Source: Balneolaceae bacterium (lineage in GTDB: Bacteria > Bacteroidota > Rhodothermia > Balneolales > Balneolaceae). From it: 64,000 nt of DNA. The notes beneath the pieces are model-generated. The model did no database searches, had not been told where the DNA came from, and saw only the letters and a program-made list of their open reading frames with translations. The stretch is taken from contig JAEPNO010000006.1 in the NCBI GenBank assembly GCA_017643365.1, forward strand, positions 124,001 through 188,000, in the 5' to 3' direction. This document shows, piece after piece, positions 14,301 to 20,006 of the stretch. Position numbers and translations under genes: made by a program. Within the stretch, counting starts at the first letter, position 1. Each line of letters begins with the position of its first letter.

Positions 14301-15443
14301 ATGTCTGGTATTTACATTCATATCCCGTTTTGCAAGCAGGCGTGTTCTTATTGCGATTTCTACTTCGTAACCCGGCATCATCAGAAACAAGCATTTGTAG
14401 ATGCATTGGTTGAAGAAATCCGGAGTTACAAGAATTTGGAAATCTCGTCCGAGTCTGTTTCTTCCGTGTATTTTGGAGGAGGAACACCATCACTGTTAAG
14501 CGCTCAACAATTTGAGCAAATATTGAATGCACTCGAAGACGTTTTTCCTCTTCAGCTTAAAGAACTCACCATCGAAATGAACCCGGATGATGTGCGTCCG
14601 GATTACTTGAATGAGTTAAAAAGCATTGGCGTTAACCGGGCAAGTATGGGGGTGCAAAGTTTTGATGAAAACCTGCTTGCTTTCATGCATCGGGCACATA
14701 ACCGGAGCGAAGCTTTGCGAAGTCTCGAGTATTTATCAGCGGCCGGTTTCGATACGTTTACGGTAGATTTGATCTATGGAAATCCCGGTCAATCATTGGA
14801 GGTGCTCAATCAGGATATCGATACTTTGCTATCATTTGAGCCCCCTCATGTTTCTGCCTATTCCCTTACAGTAGAGCCCCAAACACGGTTAGGTAAACAG
14901 GTAGATTTGGGCCGCATTATCCCGCCTGAAGATGATCAGGTTGCCATTCATTTTGAAACAGTAGTGAATCGTTTAGGCAAAGCGGGAATCCAACAATACG
15001 AAGTGAGCAATTATGCCAAACCCGGCCACGAAGCCGTACATAATTCTGCTTATTGGAGTCATGTGAATTATCTTGGTCTGGGTCCGGCGGCACATTCCTT
15101 TTTGTGGGATGCAGACCGAAATCAAGCTCAACGATGGAGCAATAAGCCTAGCCTAAAAGACTATCTGGAGAGTCCATCACACCAAAAAATCGAGGTTGAA
15201 ATACTGACGTTACCAGCACTTGCCGAAGAACGGTTAATGCTCGGACTTCGAACGAAGCAAGGTGTAGGCTTCGCCGAGTTGGAAAATCGATATCATTTTT
15301 CTTTAAGTGATAAACAAAAGCTTTACCTAAAAGAGAAGCAAAATCTTGGGCTGGTTGAGCCACAAAATGATCGCATTTCCTTAACCACTGATGGACTTAA
15401 GATCGCCGATTCCATCATACTTGATCTGATCACTAGCGCATAG
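14301..15443 (+). CDS. hemW: Radical SAM protein HemW (heme chaperone family)
   Basis: 380 residues. The radical-SAM cluster motif CKQACSYCDFYF is near residue 11. GGGTPSLL and DLIYGNPGQS follow, and the HemW-type HNSAYWSHVNYLGLGPAAHSF motif is present. HemW is thought to bind and deliver heme and lacks coproporphyrinogen dehydrogenase activity in characterised cases. The C-terminus has the HemN-C helical domain. It ends 11 bp inside the convergent HU-LysM gene. Confidence 0.92.
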   Translation: MSGIYIHIPFCKQACSYCDFYFVTRHHQKQAFVDALVEEIRSYKNLEISSESVSSVYFGGGTPSLLSAQQFEQILNALEDVFPLQLKELTIEMNPDDVRPDYLNELKSIGVNRASMGVQSFDENLLAFMHRAHNRSEALRSLEYLSAAGFDTFTVDLIYGNPGQSLEVLNQDIDTLLSFEPPHVSAYSLTVEPQTRLGKQVDLGRIIPPEDDQVAIHFETVVNRLGKAGIQQYEVSNYAKPGHEAVHNSAYWSHVNYLGLGPAAHSFLWDADRNQAQRWSNKPSLKDYLESPSHQKIEVEILTLPALAEERLMLGLRTKQGVGFAELENRYHFSLSDKQKLYLKEKQNLGLVEPQNDRISLTTDGLKIADSIILDLITSA

Positions 15444-16875
15444 ACTCATACCAATCGGCAGCTTTGCGATAGGCTGCTGCCTGACTGTCATTTCCCGCTT
15501 GCTCGTAAGCAACAGCGACATATCGTGCTGCATCGGCTAAACGGCGATAATCTTCTGAACTGGGATTGTCGGTTGTGCCTTCTAATTTCGGAATGTTCAG
15601 GTTTACATTCGGCAGGATTAAGTCGGGATCGTTTGCAGTAGTGTAATTTGCTTGAAATATCAGGGGCCAAAGCCGTGTATTTCCATAAGTTTGCCGAGCG
15701 ATTTCATAAATCCAAACTCCAGAGCCGGTTGTGTAAGTAACGGCTATAGTTTCCTGCATTTCAATTTGTGGCTCCGGATTATTGATAGACCGCATTTCCC
15801 CGGGATTCTCTGAAAGATCAACATCGGCGGCAACCATAGGAATAACCTGACTTTCCGTTTCGGCAGGCTCATCGCTCTGGGTAGATTCTGTATTTGATGG
15901 TGGTTCAAAAGCTAAAGGATCGTTAATCGGATCAGTTTGAGTTGACGGGGCCGACTCTGAATCTGCAGTTTGAGTTTGTGTGGAATCTGTTCTTAAAAAG
16001 AAAAACCAAATAGCTAAAATCATTATCACAAAAGTCGCAAGTACAGCTAATAATACAGTCGGGTTAAGTGCACTTTTATTTCGATTTGGCAATCCGGGTG
16101 TGCGTAAACCTGCCGGATTTTCCTCTTCTTCTACTTCTTTTTCTTCTTGAATCGAGCCAGATTCTTCGAAAATATCGGATTCTTGCTCGTCTTCGTCCGC
16201 TTCAAGCGTTAATTCAACTTCTTCAACTACTTCTGTTTCCAGAACTACTTCGTCAACCGAAGTTTTCTCAATGGTTGATTCTTCGGGCTCATCCGATAAT
16301 CCCAAAATATCATCTAATACTTCATCGTCAGATTCTACCGGTGTTGCAGTGATTTCTTCCTCATCAATTCCCAATGATTCAGTGGGATTAAAGTCCTCTT
16401 GTTTGTCTACCTCGGGTTCTTCTTCAAAATTAAACGGGTCATCATCCGGCGAAGGTTGTTTACCGGGCGATGTTGTTAAGGTATTAAATAAAGCCTCGGC
16501 ACTATTTGGCTCACTTTTCGAGCTGTCATCGTTCTTTGGTGCTTTATCCGAATTATCTTCAATTACTTTTGCCTCAAGATGATCGTACTCGTGGTTCACC
16601 TTTTTTTCCAGCGCTTTGTAAGGGGTAAAAGAAATTCGTTTATGCGCCGGAATTGAGATCGGTTCTCCGGTTTGGGGATTAACTCCATTCCGTTCTGCAA
16701 CTTCAACCACAGTAAAACTGCCAAAATTGGTAATGGCGGCTTTTTCTTTTTCAGTAATTTCTTTGAGTAAGATGTCGGTTAAATGACCTATATAATCTTG
16801 AGCAGCTGTTTTAGAAATGTAAGTCTCGTCAGAAAGTTGCTCTATTATTTCGGCTAATGTGACTTTATCCTTCAT
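15433..16875 (-). CDS. HU-domain protein with transmembrane segment and C-terminal LysM domain
   Basis: 480 residues. Residues 1-92 are an HU/IHF-type DNA-binding domain (ITNFGSFTVVEVAERNGVNPQTG, ISFTPYKALE). Residues about 100-260 are a low-complexity, strongly acidic linker. Residues 273-294 form one transmembrane helix preceded by RNK, suggesting a cytoplasmic N-terminus. Residues about 379-431 look like LysM (VWIYEIARQTYGNTRLWPLIFQAN, LPNVNLNIP), and the end is a TPR-like helix pair. It could tie DNA to the envelope or peptidoglycan (inference). It starts 2 bp after another HU gene, so the pair is an operon. Confidence 0.85.
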   Translation of the reverse strand: MKDKVTLAEIIEQLSDETYISKTAAQDYIGHLTDILLKEITEKEKAAITNFGSFTVVEVAERNGVNPQTGEPISIPAHKRISFTPYKALEKKVNHEYDHLEAKVIEDNSDKAPKNDDSSKSEPNSAEALFNTLTTSPGKQPSPDDDPFNFEEEPEVDKQEDFNPTESLGIDEEEITATPVESDDEVLDDILGLSDEPEESTIEKTSVDEVVLETEVVEEVELTLEADEDEQESDIFEESGSIQEEKEVEEEENPAGLRTPGLPNRNKSALNPTVLLAVLATFVIMILAIWFFFLRTDSTQTQTADSESAPSTQTDPINDPLAFEPPSNTESTQSDEPAETESQVIPMVAADVDLSENPGEMRSINNPEPQIEMQETIAVTYTTGSGVWIYEIARQTYGNTRLWPLIFQANYTTANDPDLILPNVNLNIPKLEGTTDNPSSEDYRRLADAARYVAVAYEQAGNDSQAAAYRKAADWYESMR

Positions 16876-16877
16876 TC

Positions 16878-17156
16878 TTAACCCTCATTTAAATCATCTT
16901 TAAGGGTAGTGCTTTGCGTAAATTGTACCACTTTTTTCTTTGGTAATTGAATCATCCCTTTATAATGGGGATTATACGTTTGATAACTATCGCGAATGCG
17001 TGAATGAAAACTGCCTAATTTAGGAATTGTAAACCCGTCATCATTTGCAAGATGATCCGATAATATGTCGACCAAGCGATTATAAATTCGTTCAGTTTCT
17101 TGTTGCGTGAAGCCTGTTCGTTCGCTTAATTGCCTGATAGTTTCTAGTTTTCCCAT
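16878..17156 (-). CDS. HU-family DNA-binding protein, divergent
   Basis: 92 residues from the ATG at 17156 (MGKLETIRQ); a longer frame begins at 17180. The HU/IHF fold is recognisable in the N-terminal helices (FTQQETERIYNRLVDILSDHL) and in FTIPKLGSFHSRIRDSYQTYNP, with a basic arm KKKVVQF. It is less conserved than housekeeping HU. It sits directly upstream of the HU-membrane-LysM gene, and the two may form a heterodimer (inference). Confidence 0.8.
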   Translation of the reverse strand: MGKLETIRQLSERTGFTQQETERIYNRLVDILSDHLANDDGFTIPKLGSFHSRIRDSYQTYNPHYKGMIQLPKKKVVQFTQSTTLKDDLNEG

Positions 17157-17290: not shown

Positions 17291-18265
17291 ATGACTAAAT
17301 CAGTTGAACAACTCCTTTCTGATGCGATAGATTACGCCGCTTTAAAGCCACCGGCTAGTATAGATTTGCGCGACGCACTCCGCGAATATGCCCGCATTAC
17401 CAGCAGTAAAGAGAGTTGGATTCTGTCTCGATTTGTTATTCCATTCTCTCAAATTCCTGATCTGGCAAAGTTCGCAGATCGTAGAGATCGGCTGCAAGGC
17501 CCTTTAAACCTTTGTATTTTTGGCCCCATTGTGGAAACCTTGCACGAATTTAGGAACACCGTACTGAATATTGAGAAAGATATTATCTCGGTGCATTCTG
17601 ATTTTCCCGGCGAAGTTCGCACCAATATTCTTGAGCTGACCCTGCCCAAAGTAAGTGTAGATAATTTCAATGCCGAAGAATTAGTAAAGGCTATTGAAGC
17701 CGTTGTTACTACATCTGCCGATTCCAGATTGCTTCCGCACAGAGTGTTTTTTGAAATTCCAGGGCAGGATATTGATATCAATCTGGCTAAAAAGATTATC
17801 AAGGTAATTGCTGTTCACAATAAATCGGTTCTTAAGCGAAAAATTGATAATTACCTGTTTTCGGGGCTTAAAATTAATTGTACCCCGGCGCCAACGGCCG
17901 AGTTTTTGGCAGAAGTTATGCTCTATGCTCGCGATGCCAACGTAGCGCTCAAATTCGCCGGTCATAATATTCATTCTTTCCCGAGCTATGACTACACCAC
18001 CAACTCCAAAGTGTTTGGGCTGATTAATCTATTGATGGCCGGATTGCTGGCCTACACTCAAGATCTTACGGTTGAGGAAACCATCGAAGTACTCGAAGAG
18101 AAAAACTCCAGTAACTTTATCTTTAAAGATGGTTACATAGCTTGGCGCGAATTGGCAGCTCCGTTAATGGAGATAAAAATGCTACGAATGCTTTCCATTA
18201 CTTCAATAAACCTAACCGATTTCGATTTACCGCTGGCTGGTTTAAGAGAACGTTCTATTTTATAA
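17291..18265 (+). CDS. Conserved-looking hypothetical protein
   Basis: 324 residues, soluble, family not recognised. No signal peptide, membrane segment or obvious catalytic motif. The composition is that of an alpha/beta enzyme: FFEIPGQDIDINLAKKIIKVIAVHNK and NVALKFAGHNIHSFPSYDY suggest strand-helix repeats such as a TIM barrel, but this is a guess. It is divergent from the HU pair with 134 bp between starts. Its 3' end overlaps the convergent T9SS protease gene by 11 bp. Confidence 0.65.
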   Translation: MTKSVEQLLSDAIDYAALKPPASIDLRDALREYARITSSKESWILSRFVIPFSQIPDLAKFADRRDRLQGPLNLCIFGPIVETLHEFRNTVLNIEKDIISVHSDFPGEVRTNILELTLPKVSVDNFNAEELVKAIEAVVTTSADSRLLPHRVFFEIPGQDIDINLAKKIIKVIAVHNKSVLKRKIDNYLFSGLKINCTPAPTAEFLAEVMLYARDANVALKFAGHNIHSFPSYDYTTNSKVFGLINLLMAGLLAYTQDLTVEETIEVLEEKNSSNFIFKDGYIAWRELAAPLMEIKMLRMLSITSINLTDFDLPLAGLRERSIL

Positions 18266-20006
18266 GCGTCATTGCTTTCGAGCGGACTCCATCCTCACTT
18301 TCTAAGCGATATATATAAATTCCTGAAGCCAGATTTTGAGCAAAAAACGGGATGTCGTGAAAGCCCGCTTCGATAGATCCGTTGTAAATGGTTTGAATTT
18401 CCCTGCCTATGGAGTCAAAAATACGGAGTGTGATATCTTGAGTTCGAGGGATGGTAACCCGAATGGATGTGTTCGGGTTAAACGGGTTGGGATAATTCTG
18501 TGCTAGTTCGATATCCTCAGCAATAAAATAATCGGTAAACCGAAAAGCATAATTGTTATTCGCTTCCGGTGAACTGTTCATGACCACAAGCCCAATTTTT
18601 TCGATTTCGGTGTACAACCAATTGGTTTCGATACTACCGGTAGTTCGATCAGGTGAACCTAAAGCCGTTTGAATTTTTGTAGAACCATTTTGCAGATAAG
18701 CAATCAAACCTAAATGCATGGCGGGGCTGTCTACATAAAAATCGAATTTCACGTAGCCTTCAGAAATTGTATTAAACTCATTGTCTAGAGCATAATAACG
18801 AGCGGCAAATGGCGAAAGTTGAAGGGTATCGGTTAGATCGGGTTGCAACTCGGTATAGGTAGATGTTCTACGCGGGTTAGGATAATTCAATCGTTCTTCG
18901 AACCCGTAATTATCGCTAGAAAAATCCGGCCCACTGGCAAAATGCCACATATACGATTCTAGCACGGCCGCATTGTAAGACTCATCTCTACTATTCAAAA
19001 CGGCTTCAATCGCATCAAGTAATAGAATGTCATTGTCGTTTTCAATAATCTCCCAAACATCCGTCCAGAAAAGGGGACCAAATCGCTCATGAAAATATAA
19101 AGCCCAAGTAATGTCTTCGTATGATCCGGCGGTTAAAGAACTCGAAGGAGAGTTAAACAAATCGGTTGAAAAGCCGGTGATGTAATTGTAATAATCATTC
19201 ACATCGTCGTAAACCACTTCTTCCATCAAAGTGGCATCCATTTCAGCCCATCGATCCGCATTACCCCGCCAATTATTTTGTGCGAATTGGATAGCGTGCT
19301 TAAACTCGTGCGCCATAGTAACTTTTACCGACCCAATAATATCGCCTTCGGGATCGGTGTTTGGCGGATATCCCGAGAAATCATTTTCGATATAAATACA
19401 AGTTCCGGGCGAGTTAGAATTACATGCAAAACTCCCTGATGTCCGATTATTGGTAAGGCCATATGCACCTACATTTGCCAGGTTTTGCACAAAAACATCG
19501 TACACTTCGCCGGCACCAATCGGGTCGGTAAACCCTAGAGTTATTATCTCATGTTGATAAGAGGAATCGGCGGCTTCGGCAACTTCTTCTACATAATCGG
19601 GAATGCCATTGGTGTTAAAATCATCCGAAGGAACGCGATCTGTGCCGGAAGTTTCGTAGTGAATTCGAAATTTACCGCTCGGTGAAATGTATTCCTCAGA
19701 GGCTTGGGTTTCGCGGACATCAATTTGATCAAATGCGGTTTTAAGAGCGGCTGGTACATTCGAACCATCGTTTTGTAAAGAAATAATGAGCGGGGTAAGA
19801 CACTTCACAAATGAATGCTCGTGATTTTGAATCGAGTGCGTCGAATGACCAAAAAATTGCTTTATCGCTTCTGCAGGATTTGGTTCTTCGAACGAAGTAT
19901 CAGATTGTTGAGCCGATAATGAATTATCCGCCAGAACAATAATGCAGCACGTAAGGAGCAAATATAAATAGTGTCGACAATGAGTTGTCAGGGGCGTCTT
20001 TTTCAA
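18255..20006 (-). CDS. Secreted metalloprotease (MXAN_6640-like) with T9SS type A sorting domain
   Basis: 583 residues. The signal peptide (YLYLLLTCCIIVLADNSLSA) is followed by a segment with NTNGIPDYVEEVAEAAD and the zinc motif HEFKH in VTMAHEFKHAIQFAQ. The HExxH motif and surroundings match the MXAN_6640 family of putative proteases. The last about 80 residues are a type IX secretion sorting domain: AQNYPNPFNPNTSI, LRIFDSIGREIQTI, and a basic tail MTLIK. It should be exported by Sec, then T9SS, and attached at the cell surface or released. PorX, a regulator of T9SS, is encoded at 23.4 kb. Confidence 0.85.
   Translation of the reverse strand: MKKTPLTTHCRHYLYLLLTCCIIVLADNSLSAQQSDTSFEEPNPAEAIKQFFGHSTHSIQNHEHSFVKCLTPLIISLQNDGSNVPAALKTAFDQIDVRETQASEEYISPSGKFRIHYETSGTDRVPSDDFNTNGIPDYVEEVAEAADSSYQHEIITLGFTDPIGAGEVYDVFVQNLANVGAYGLTNNRTSGSFACNSNSPGTCIYIENDFSGYPPNTDPEGDIIGSVKVTMAHEFKHAIQFAQNNWRGNADRWAEMDATLMEEVVYDDVNDYYNYITGFSTDLFNSPSSSLTAGSYEDITWALYFHERFGPLFWTDVWEIIENDNDILLLDAIEAVLNSRDESYNAAVLESYMWHFASGPDFSSDNYGFEERLNYPNPRRTSTYTELQPDLTDTLQLSPFAARYYALDNEFNTISEGYVKFDFYVDSPAMHLGLIAYLQNGSTKIQTALGSPDRTTGSIETNWLYTEIEKIGLVVMNSSPEANNNYAFRFTDYFIAEDIELAQNYPNPFNPNTSIRVTIPRTQDITLRIFDSIGREIQTIYNGSIEAGFHDIPFFAQNLASGIYIYRLESEDGVRSKAMTLIK

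Follow-up and report, generated by a model that had tools for sequence, protein, structure and literature searches.

Two adjacent HU proteins, one predicted to be membrane-anchored with a LysM-like domain, as a candidate link between nucleoid and cell wall in Balneolaceae

A 64,000-nucleotide stretch of a Balneolaceae bacterium genome (hereafter the window; GenBank assembly GCA_017643365.1, contig JAEPNO010000006.1) encodes two adjacent members of the HU family, a small protein (HU-A) and a larger one (HU-B) in which an HU domain is followed by an acidic linker, a single membrane helix and a LysM-like domain. The architecture of the two proteins, their folds, their arm residues and, from sequence and phylogeny, their obligate pairing were computed here. 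We consider it somewhat more probable than not that HU-A and HU-B form an obligate heterodimer that spans the inner membrane and tethers the nucleoid to the wall.

Architecture and predicted topology

The initial annotation, made from the sequence without database searches, had described HU-B as an HU domain, an acidic linker, one membrane helix and a LysM-like domain, with a separate divergent HU gene 2 bp upstream. Both descriptions were confirmed (Table 1), the former by PF00216, composition, hydropathy, an AlphaFold model and structure alignment to Kbp. Residues 6–94 of HU-B match PF00216 with an E-value of 8.4e-23 (80.9 bits, over the curated cut-off of 22.4), the domain aligns with the Lactococcus lactis HU structure 5lvt at Z 10.4 (VIA structure alignment), and HU elements occupy residues 7–93 of the model, in which the HU and LysM parts have pLDDT values of about 91–97. 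Residues 95–272 contain 59 D/E and 11 K/R, the pLDDT of the linker is mostly below 50, and the membrane helix reaches a hydropathy of 2.92 over 19 residues. The C-terminal hairpin is modelled as helices 440–459 and 463–478, and is kept in close relatives. HU-A begins with the ATG at 17156 and ends at 16878, leaving the 2 bp gap to the ATG of HU-B; it matches PF00216 at 6e-18 (65.3 bits, same cut-off of 22.4) and its model (pLDDT 92) has an HU fold with a beta arm as assigned by Foldseek. The same Pfam model matches 53/53 HU-B relatives and 51/51 HU-A relatives at E ≤ 1e-2 (0.01). The search for relatives yielded 127 distinct ORFs for HU-B, and 126 of these have a single membrane helix and a LysM domain. 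A chance fusion or mis-assembly was ruled out, since this architecture repeats in those 126 of 127 distinct relatives from many independent genomes.

Table 1. Features of the HU-A and HU-B genes, in positions of the window
Feature	Position	Strand	Basis
HU-A, 92-aa HU, putative soluble subunit, arm-tip motif YNPHY	16878..17156	(-)	PF00216, model
HU-B, 480 aa: HU + acidic linker + membrane helix + LysM	15433..16875	(-)	ORF
HU-B HU domain, residues 6-94, arm tip NPQTG	16594..16860	(-)	PF00216
HU-B acidic disordered linker, residues 95-271	16063..16593	(-)	composition, low pLDDT
HU-B single transmembrane helix, residues 272-297	15985..16062	(-)	hydropathy, AlphaFold model
HU-B putative periplasmic linker, residues 298-376	15748..15984	(-)	low pLDDT; side by charge bias
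HU-B LysM domain, residues 377-432	15580..15747	(-)	predicted fold, structure alignment
HU-B C-terminal helical hairpin, residues 433-480	15436..15579	(-)	AlphaFold model

The C-terminal domain is most accurately labelled LysM-like by sequence and LysM by predicted fold. Residues 379–428 are modelled as the beta-alpha-alpha-beta unit of a LysM fold (pLDDT 93–97), and residues 377–432 superpose on the LysM domain of Escherichia coli Kbp in the solved structure 7vcm with Z 6.6 and an rmsd of 1.6 Å over 55 residues. The region also matches Kbp by sequence (E 8e-5) and the NCBIfam LysM protein PRK11198 (E 2.5e-7, below the equivalog cut-off). The Pfam LysM model PF01476 does not match the window HU-B, and it matches 7/53 HU-B relatives at E ≤ 0.01. 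The nearest solved LysM is that of Kbp, which the PDB describes as a potassium-binding protein rather than a wall binder; the VIA table for residues 377–432 lists no LysM wall-lytic enzyme, but consists mostly of HU and is hence no evidence against such a relation.

Topology was assessed from the K/R content of the 15 residues flanking the membrane helix, which is higher on the HU side in 102/126 proteins, tied in 14 and opposite in 10, with means of 3.4 on the HU side and 1.4 on the LysM side. HU-B has no N-terminal hydrophobic segment. As a statistical rule, this charge bias favours an HU domain inside and a LysM domain outside, and so lends support to the topology put forward in the initial annotation, rather than placing the HU part outside, the outcome named there as a refutation. 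The parts of HU-B also differ in their rate of change: compared with one relative of the same genus (G033), identity is 56% in the HU domain, 84% in LysM and 20% in the cytoplasmic linker, half of whose length is missing, and compared with another (G032) it is 84%, 93% and 49%, respectively. Conserved folded ends joined by a fast-drifting linker are the pattern expected of a tether.

Pairing and distribution of the two subunits

A small HU gene lies directly upstream of HU-B in 122 of the 127 loci, usually overlapping it, mostly by 4–11 bp and most commonly by 8 or 4; one of the five loci lacking it (L099) sits at a contig end. Within the family Balneolaceae, HU-A directly precedes HU-B in 30/30 loci, with spacing from a 23 bp overlap to a 3 bp gap. 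Gene order is A then B in all 112 complete pairs, and no ORF fusing the two was present among the 127 recovered loci.

In a tree of 113 HU sequences, HU-A forms one clade (56/56, support 0.93) and HU-B another (44/44, support 0.949), inside which four SPOR-type HUs nest. Each clade spans all three groups of carriers (Balneolaceae, Bacteroidales and the Neomarinimicrobiota group), indicating that the pair either predates the split of these groups or moved as a pair. An HU-A profile scored 116–150 bits in 13 scored carriers and gave no match in a fragmented carrier (G071), while in 19 family genomes lacking a full-length HU-B it found no HU-A-grade match, the best score being 61 bits, the level of an ordinary HU. 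In one of the 19 (G078), a fragment of a divergent HU-B is immediately preceded by an HU that scores 44 bits, and this genome may keep a diverged HU-A/HU-B pair. A single deletion can remove two neighbouring genes, so this co-absence supports, without proving, a mutual need. The upstream HU in 122/127 loci, the separate A and B clades and the lack of an HU-A-grade match where HU-B is absent together strengthen the earlier suggestion that the upstream gene encodes the dimer partner. By sequence, the pair comprises two separate paralogous HU clades that always occur together, a pattern that fits an IHF-like obligate heterodimer.

HU-B is carried by Balneolaceae, by Bacteroidales (Prevotellaceae, Bacteroidaceae and Tannerella forsythia) and by members of the phylum to which a genome with the title Candidatus Neomarinimicrobiota belongs. 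At E ≤ 1e-20, matches were found in 36/198 sampled Bacteroidales, a few of these being HU-only matches, and in 19/100 genomes sampled from the phylum of the Neomarinimicrobiota-titled genome. Full-length matches in a sample of 245 genomes from the same class were confined to Balneolaceae, and only ordinary HUs matched elsewhere; in a phylum-wide sample, with about four candidates scored per genome, they were confined to this family and to a handful of genomes from two others. The survey of the pair across genomes suggested in the initial annotation recovered a module conserved in two phyla, with 127 distinct relatives. The HU pair with LysM is absent from 11/66 good Balneolaceae genomes and from most sampled Bacteroidales, which indicates that the module is accessory rather than essential in general. 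HU-B is present once per carrier genome searched. Plasmid records gave HU-domain matches only, none covering 80% of HU-B.

In Bacteroidales the pair has a fixed location: rimO immediately precedes it, and it is often followed by a 331-aa gene that we take to encode a MoxR-type ATPase. In the window, a gene divergent from the pair (17291–18265, plus strand) encodes a 324-aa protein with no Pfam match, and proteins resembling it by eye adjoin the pair in loci L014 and L015. Beyond it lies a gene (18255–20006, minus strand) for a 583-aa protein with a C-terminal Por secretion (type IX) sorting domain, and a similar protein occurs near the pair in loci L028 and L031. Apart from its two HU pairs, the genome encodes another divergent HU-like protein, ~103 aa long and with the arm tip NPKT (contig C6, L003:1489–1800, minus strand).

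Relation to a second HU pair and to known systems

The second HU pair of this genome, on contig C51, consists of a 65-aa HU-like ORF followed by a 600-aa protein (L007:5286–7088) with a short degenerate HU-like part (PF00216 at 6–53), an acidic linker, a membrane helix and a SPOR domain (PF05036, E 5.1e-9); PF18175 matches it at 1e-5, below the cut-off of that model. The SPOR-type protein was matched in 87/89 family genomes, some of the matches being partial. An ExbB-like gene follows this pair after 9 bp, and then ExbD-like and TonB genes (L007:5090–9048); the order HU, SPOR, ExbB recurred in 6/6 close relatives inspected, a hint that a Tol- or TonB-like motor may be coupled to a membrane HU.

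Burroughs and co-workers reportedly proposed in 2017 that the related CCDC81/SPOR proteins of Bacteroidetes are membrane HUs that carry a wall-binding domain. The C51 pair is of their CCDC81-like type. As in that type, the window pair has a small HU gene immediately preceding the gene for a protein with HU, acidic linker, single helix and wall-binding-type domain, but HU-B carries LysM instead of SPOR, and both window HUs match PF00216 over its full length with intact arms. Neither window protein matches the CCDC81_bac HU models PF18174/PF18175 at E ≤ 1; relatives match them weakly, at best with 1.7e-4 for HU-B and 1.5e-6 for HU-A. The title of the 2017 study names chromosome partitioning (Burroughs et al. 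2017, Cell Cycle 16:1093; via PMC5906684).

HU-B may also fall within HU_bacL, a Bacteroidetes-only clade of HUs described as having a charged C-terminal extension that averages 238 residues and is compared to lysine-rich PAKKA tails (PMC5683647); the length and charge of HU-B fit this description. Neither a membrane helix nor a LysM domain nor a partner gene is mentioned in the HU_bacL passages of that article, and the word 'membrane' is absent from its main text. Like IHF alpha/beta and the E. coli HU alpha/beta, the window pair comprises two diverged HU-fold subunits with arm prolines in the window pair; unlike them, its subunits are encoded in tandem, one is membrane-anchored and the dimer is putative. 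Vibrio HubP combines a LysM domain in the periplasm with one membrane helix and a large, acidic part in the cytosol, and is linked via ParA1 to the positioning of a chromosome origin (PMC8789113). HU-B has a similar predicted layout of an outside LysM, one helix and an acidic cytosolic part, but is no homologue: HubP is LysM-first, ends in TPR and binds protein partners, whereas HU-B is HU-first with LysM last, and no Pfam match to the C-terminal TPR/FimV region of HubP/FimV was found in it. Leaving aside the architectures in Burroughs et al. 2017, we found no study of a membrane HU with LysM in the literature.

Arm residues, proposed function and alternatives

Both window subunits have full-length arms in their AlphaFold models and the arm-tip proline at HU position 63. 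In HU-A this proline is present in 112/112 sequences, as is a lysine at HU position 74, and the arm is basic (net charge +3.6 to +5.5), whereas the HU-B arm is near neutral. The proline is kept in HU-B of Balneolaceae (63/63) and of the Neomarinimicrobiota group (9/9; 72/72 together), and is found in only 2/40 Bacteroidales HU-B sequences, which mostly have V or I instead; at Bacteroidales loci including L118, L121, L128 and L137 the HU-B arm tip reads NVNTGE, and HU-A retains the proline in all of them. An absence of DNA-contact residues from all homologues, named in the initial annotation as the outcome that would speak against its reading, was not found, given the proline in every HU-A. The asymmetry between the arms is as would be expected, from sequence, of a specialised heterodimer, and with a nearly neutral HU-B arm and the loss of its proline in most Bacteroidales the grip on DNA may be asymmetric or weak.

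We infer the following mechanism. The small, soluble HU-A and the anchored HU-B would form an obligate heterodimer in the cytoplasm that grips and bends DNA with its two arms, and the acidic linker of HU-B would hold this dimer away from the membrane. The single helix would span the inner membrane and place outside a LysM domain that grips peptidoglycan. The nucleoid would thereby be tied to the wall, which would probably aid chromosome positioning or segregation alongside the second HU pair ending in SPOR. This genome also encodes ParB, and so has other segregation machinery.

Membrane-bound regulators such as ToxR and CadC offer a model for a different role, in which LysM would respond to the state of the wall, or to an ion like Kbp, and the membrane-bound HU pair would bend DNA at specific promoters as a wall-sensing one-component regulator. 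The nearest LysM structure does belong to a ligand-binding protein, IHF-type dimers are known to work at specific sites, and the difference in proline between the arms could suit such a site; the lack of a sequence-reading domain, a long disordered linker poorly suited to signal transmission and the failure to see a fixed genomic target nevertheless make this role unlikely. A protein-contact role has been proposed for the HU fold of eukaryotic CCDC81, and the complex could in the same manner be a scaffold that organises envelope proteins and not DNA. The near-neutral HU-B arm agrees with this, as does the related SPOR-type HU-B, whose short HU matches only part of PF00216 (6–53), yet HU-A keeps its basic arm together with its proline and lysine 74 in 112/112 sequences and both window subunits have arms of full length, and we regard a scaffold as quite improbable. 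An anti-invader role has been proposed for the HU-HIG expansion of Bacteroidetes, to which the HU domains are weakly similar, and foreign DNA enters via the envelope, where the pair might trap it; that the pair serves this purpose is very improbable in view of the single copy per searched genome, the vertical clades, the housekeeping neighbours fixed in Bacteroidales (rimO upstream) and the absence of a PADLOC match.

How bacteria attach the chromosome to their envelope has long been debated, and the usual answers are indirect links (transertion, polar hubs). The tether proposed here would be one two-chain complex whose opposite ends carry a DNA-binding fold and a wall-binding-type fold. We suggest, tentatively and with somewhat less than even confidence, that an IHF-like asymmetric HU heterodimer found in at least two phyla links nucleoid to wall via LysM in parallel to the SPOR pair, a direct tether of a kind not known from model bacteria. 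The asymmetry of the arms offers a natural way to test the contribution of each one, and because the pair occurs in gut and oral Bacteroidales, the attachment question can be tested there by deleting two adjacent genes.
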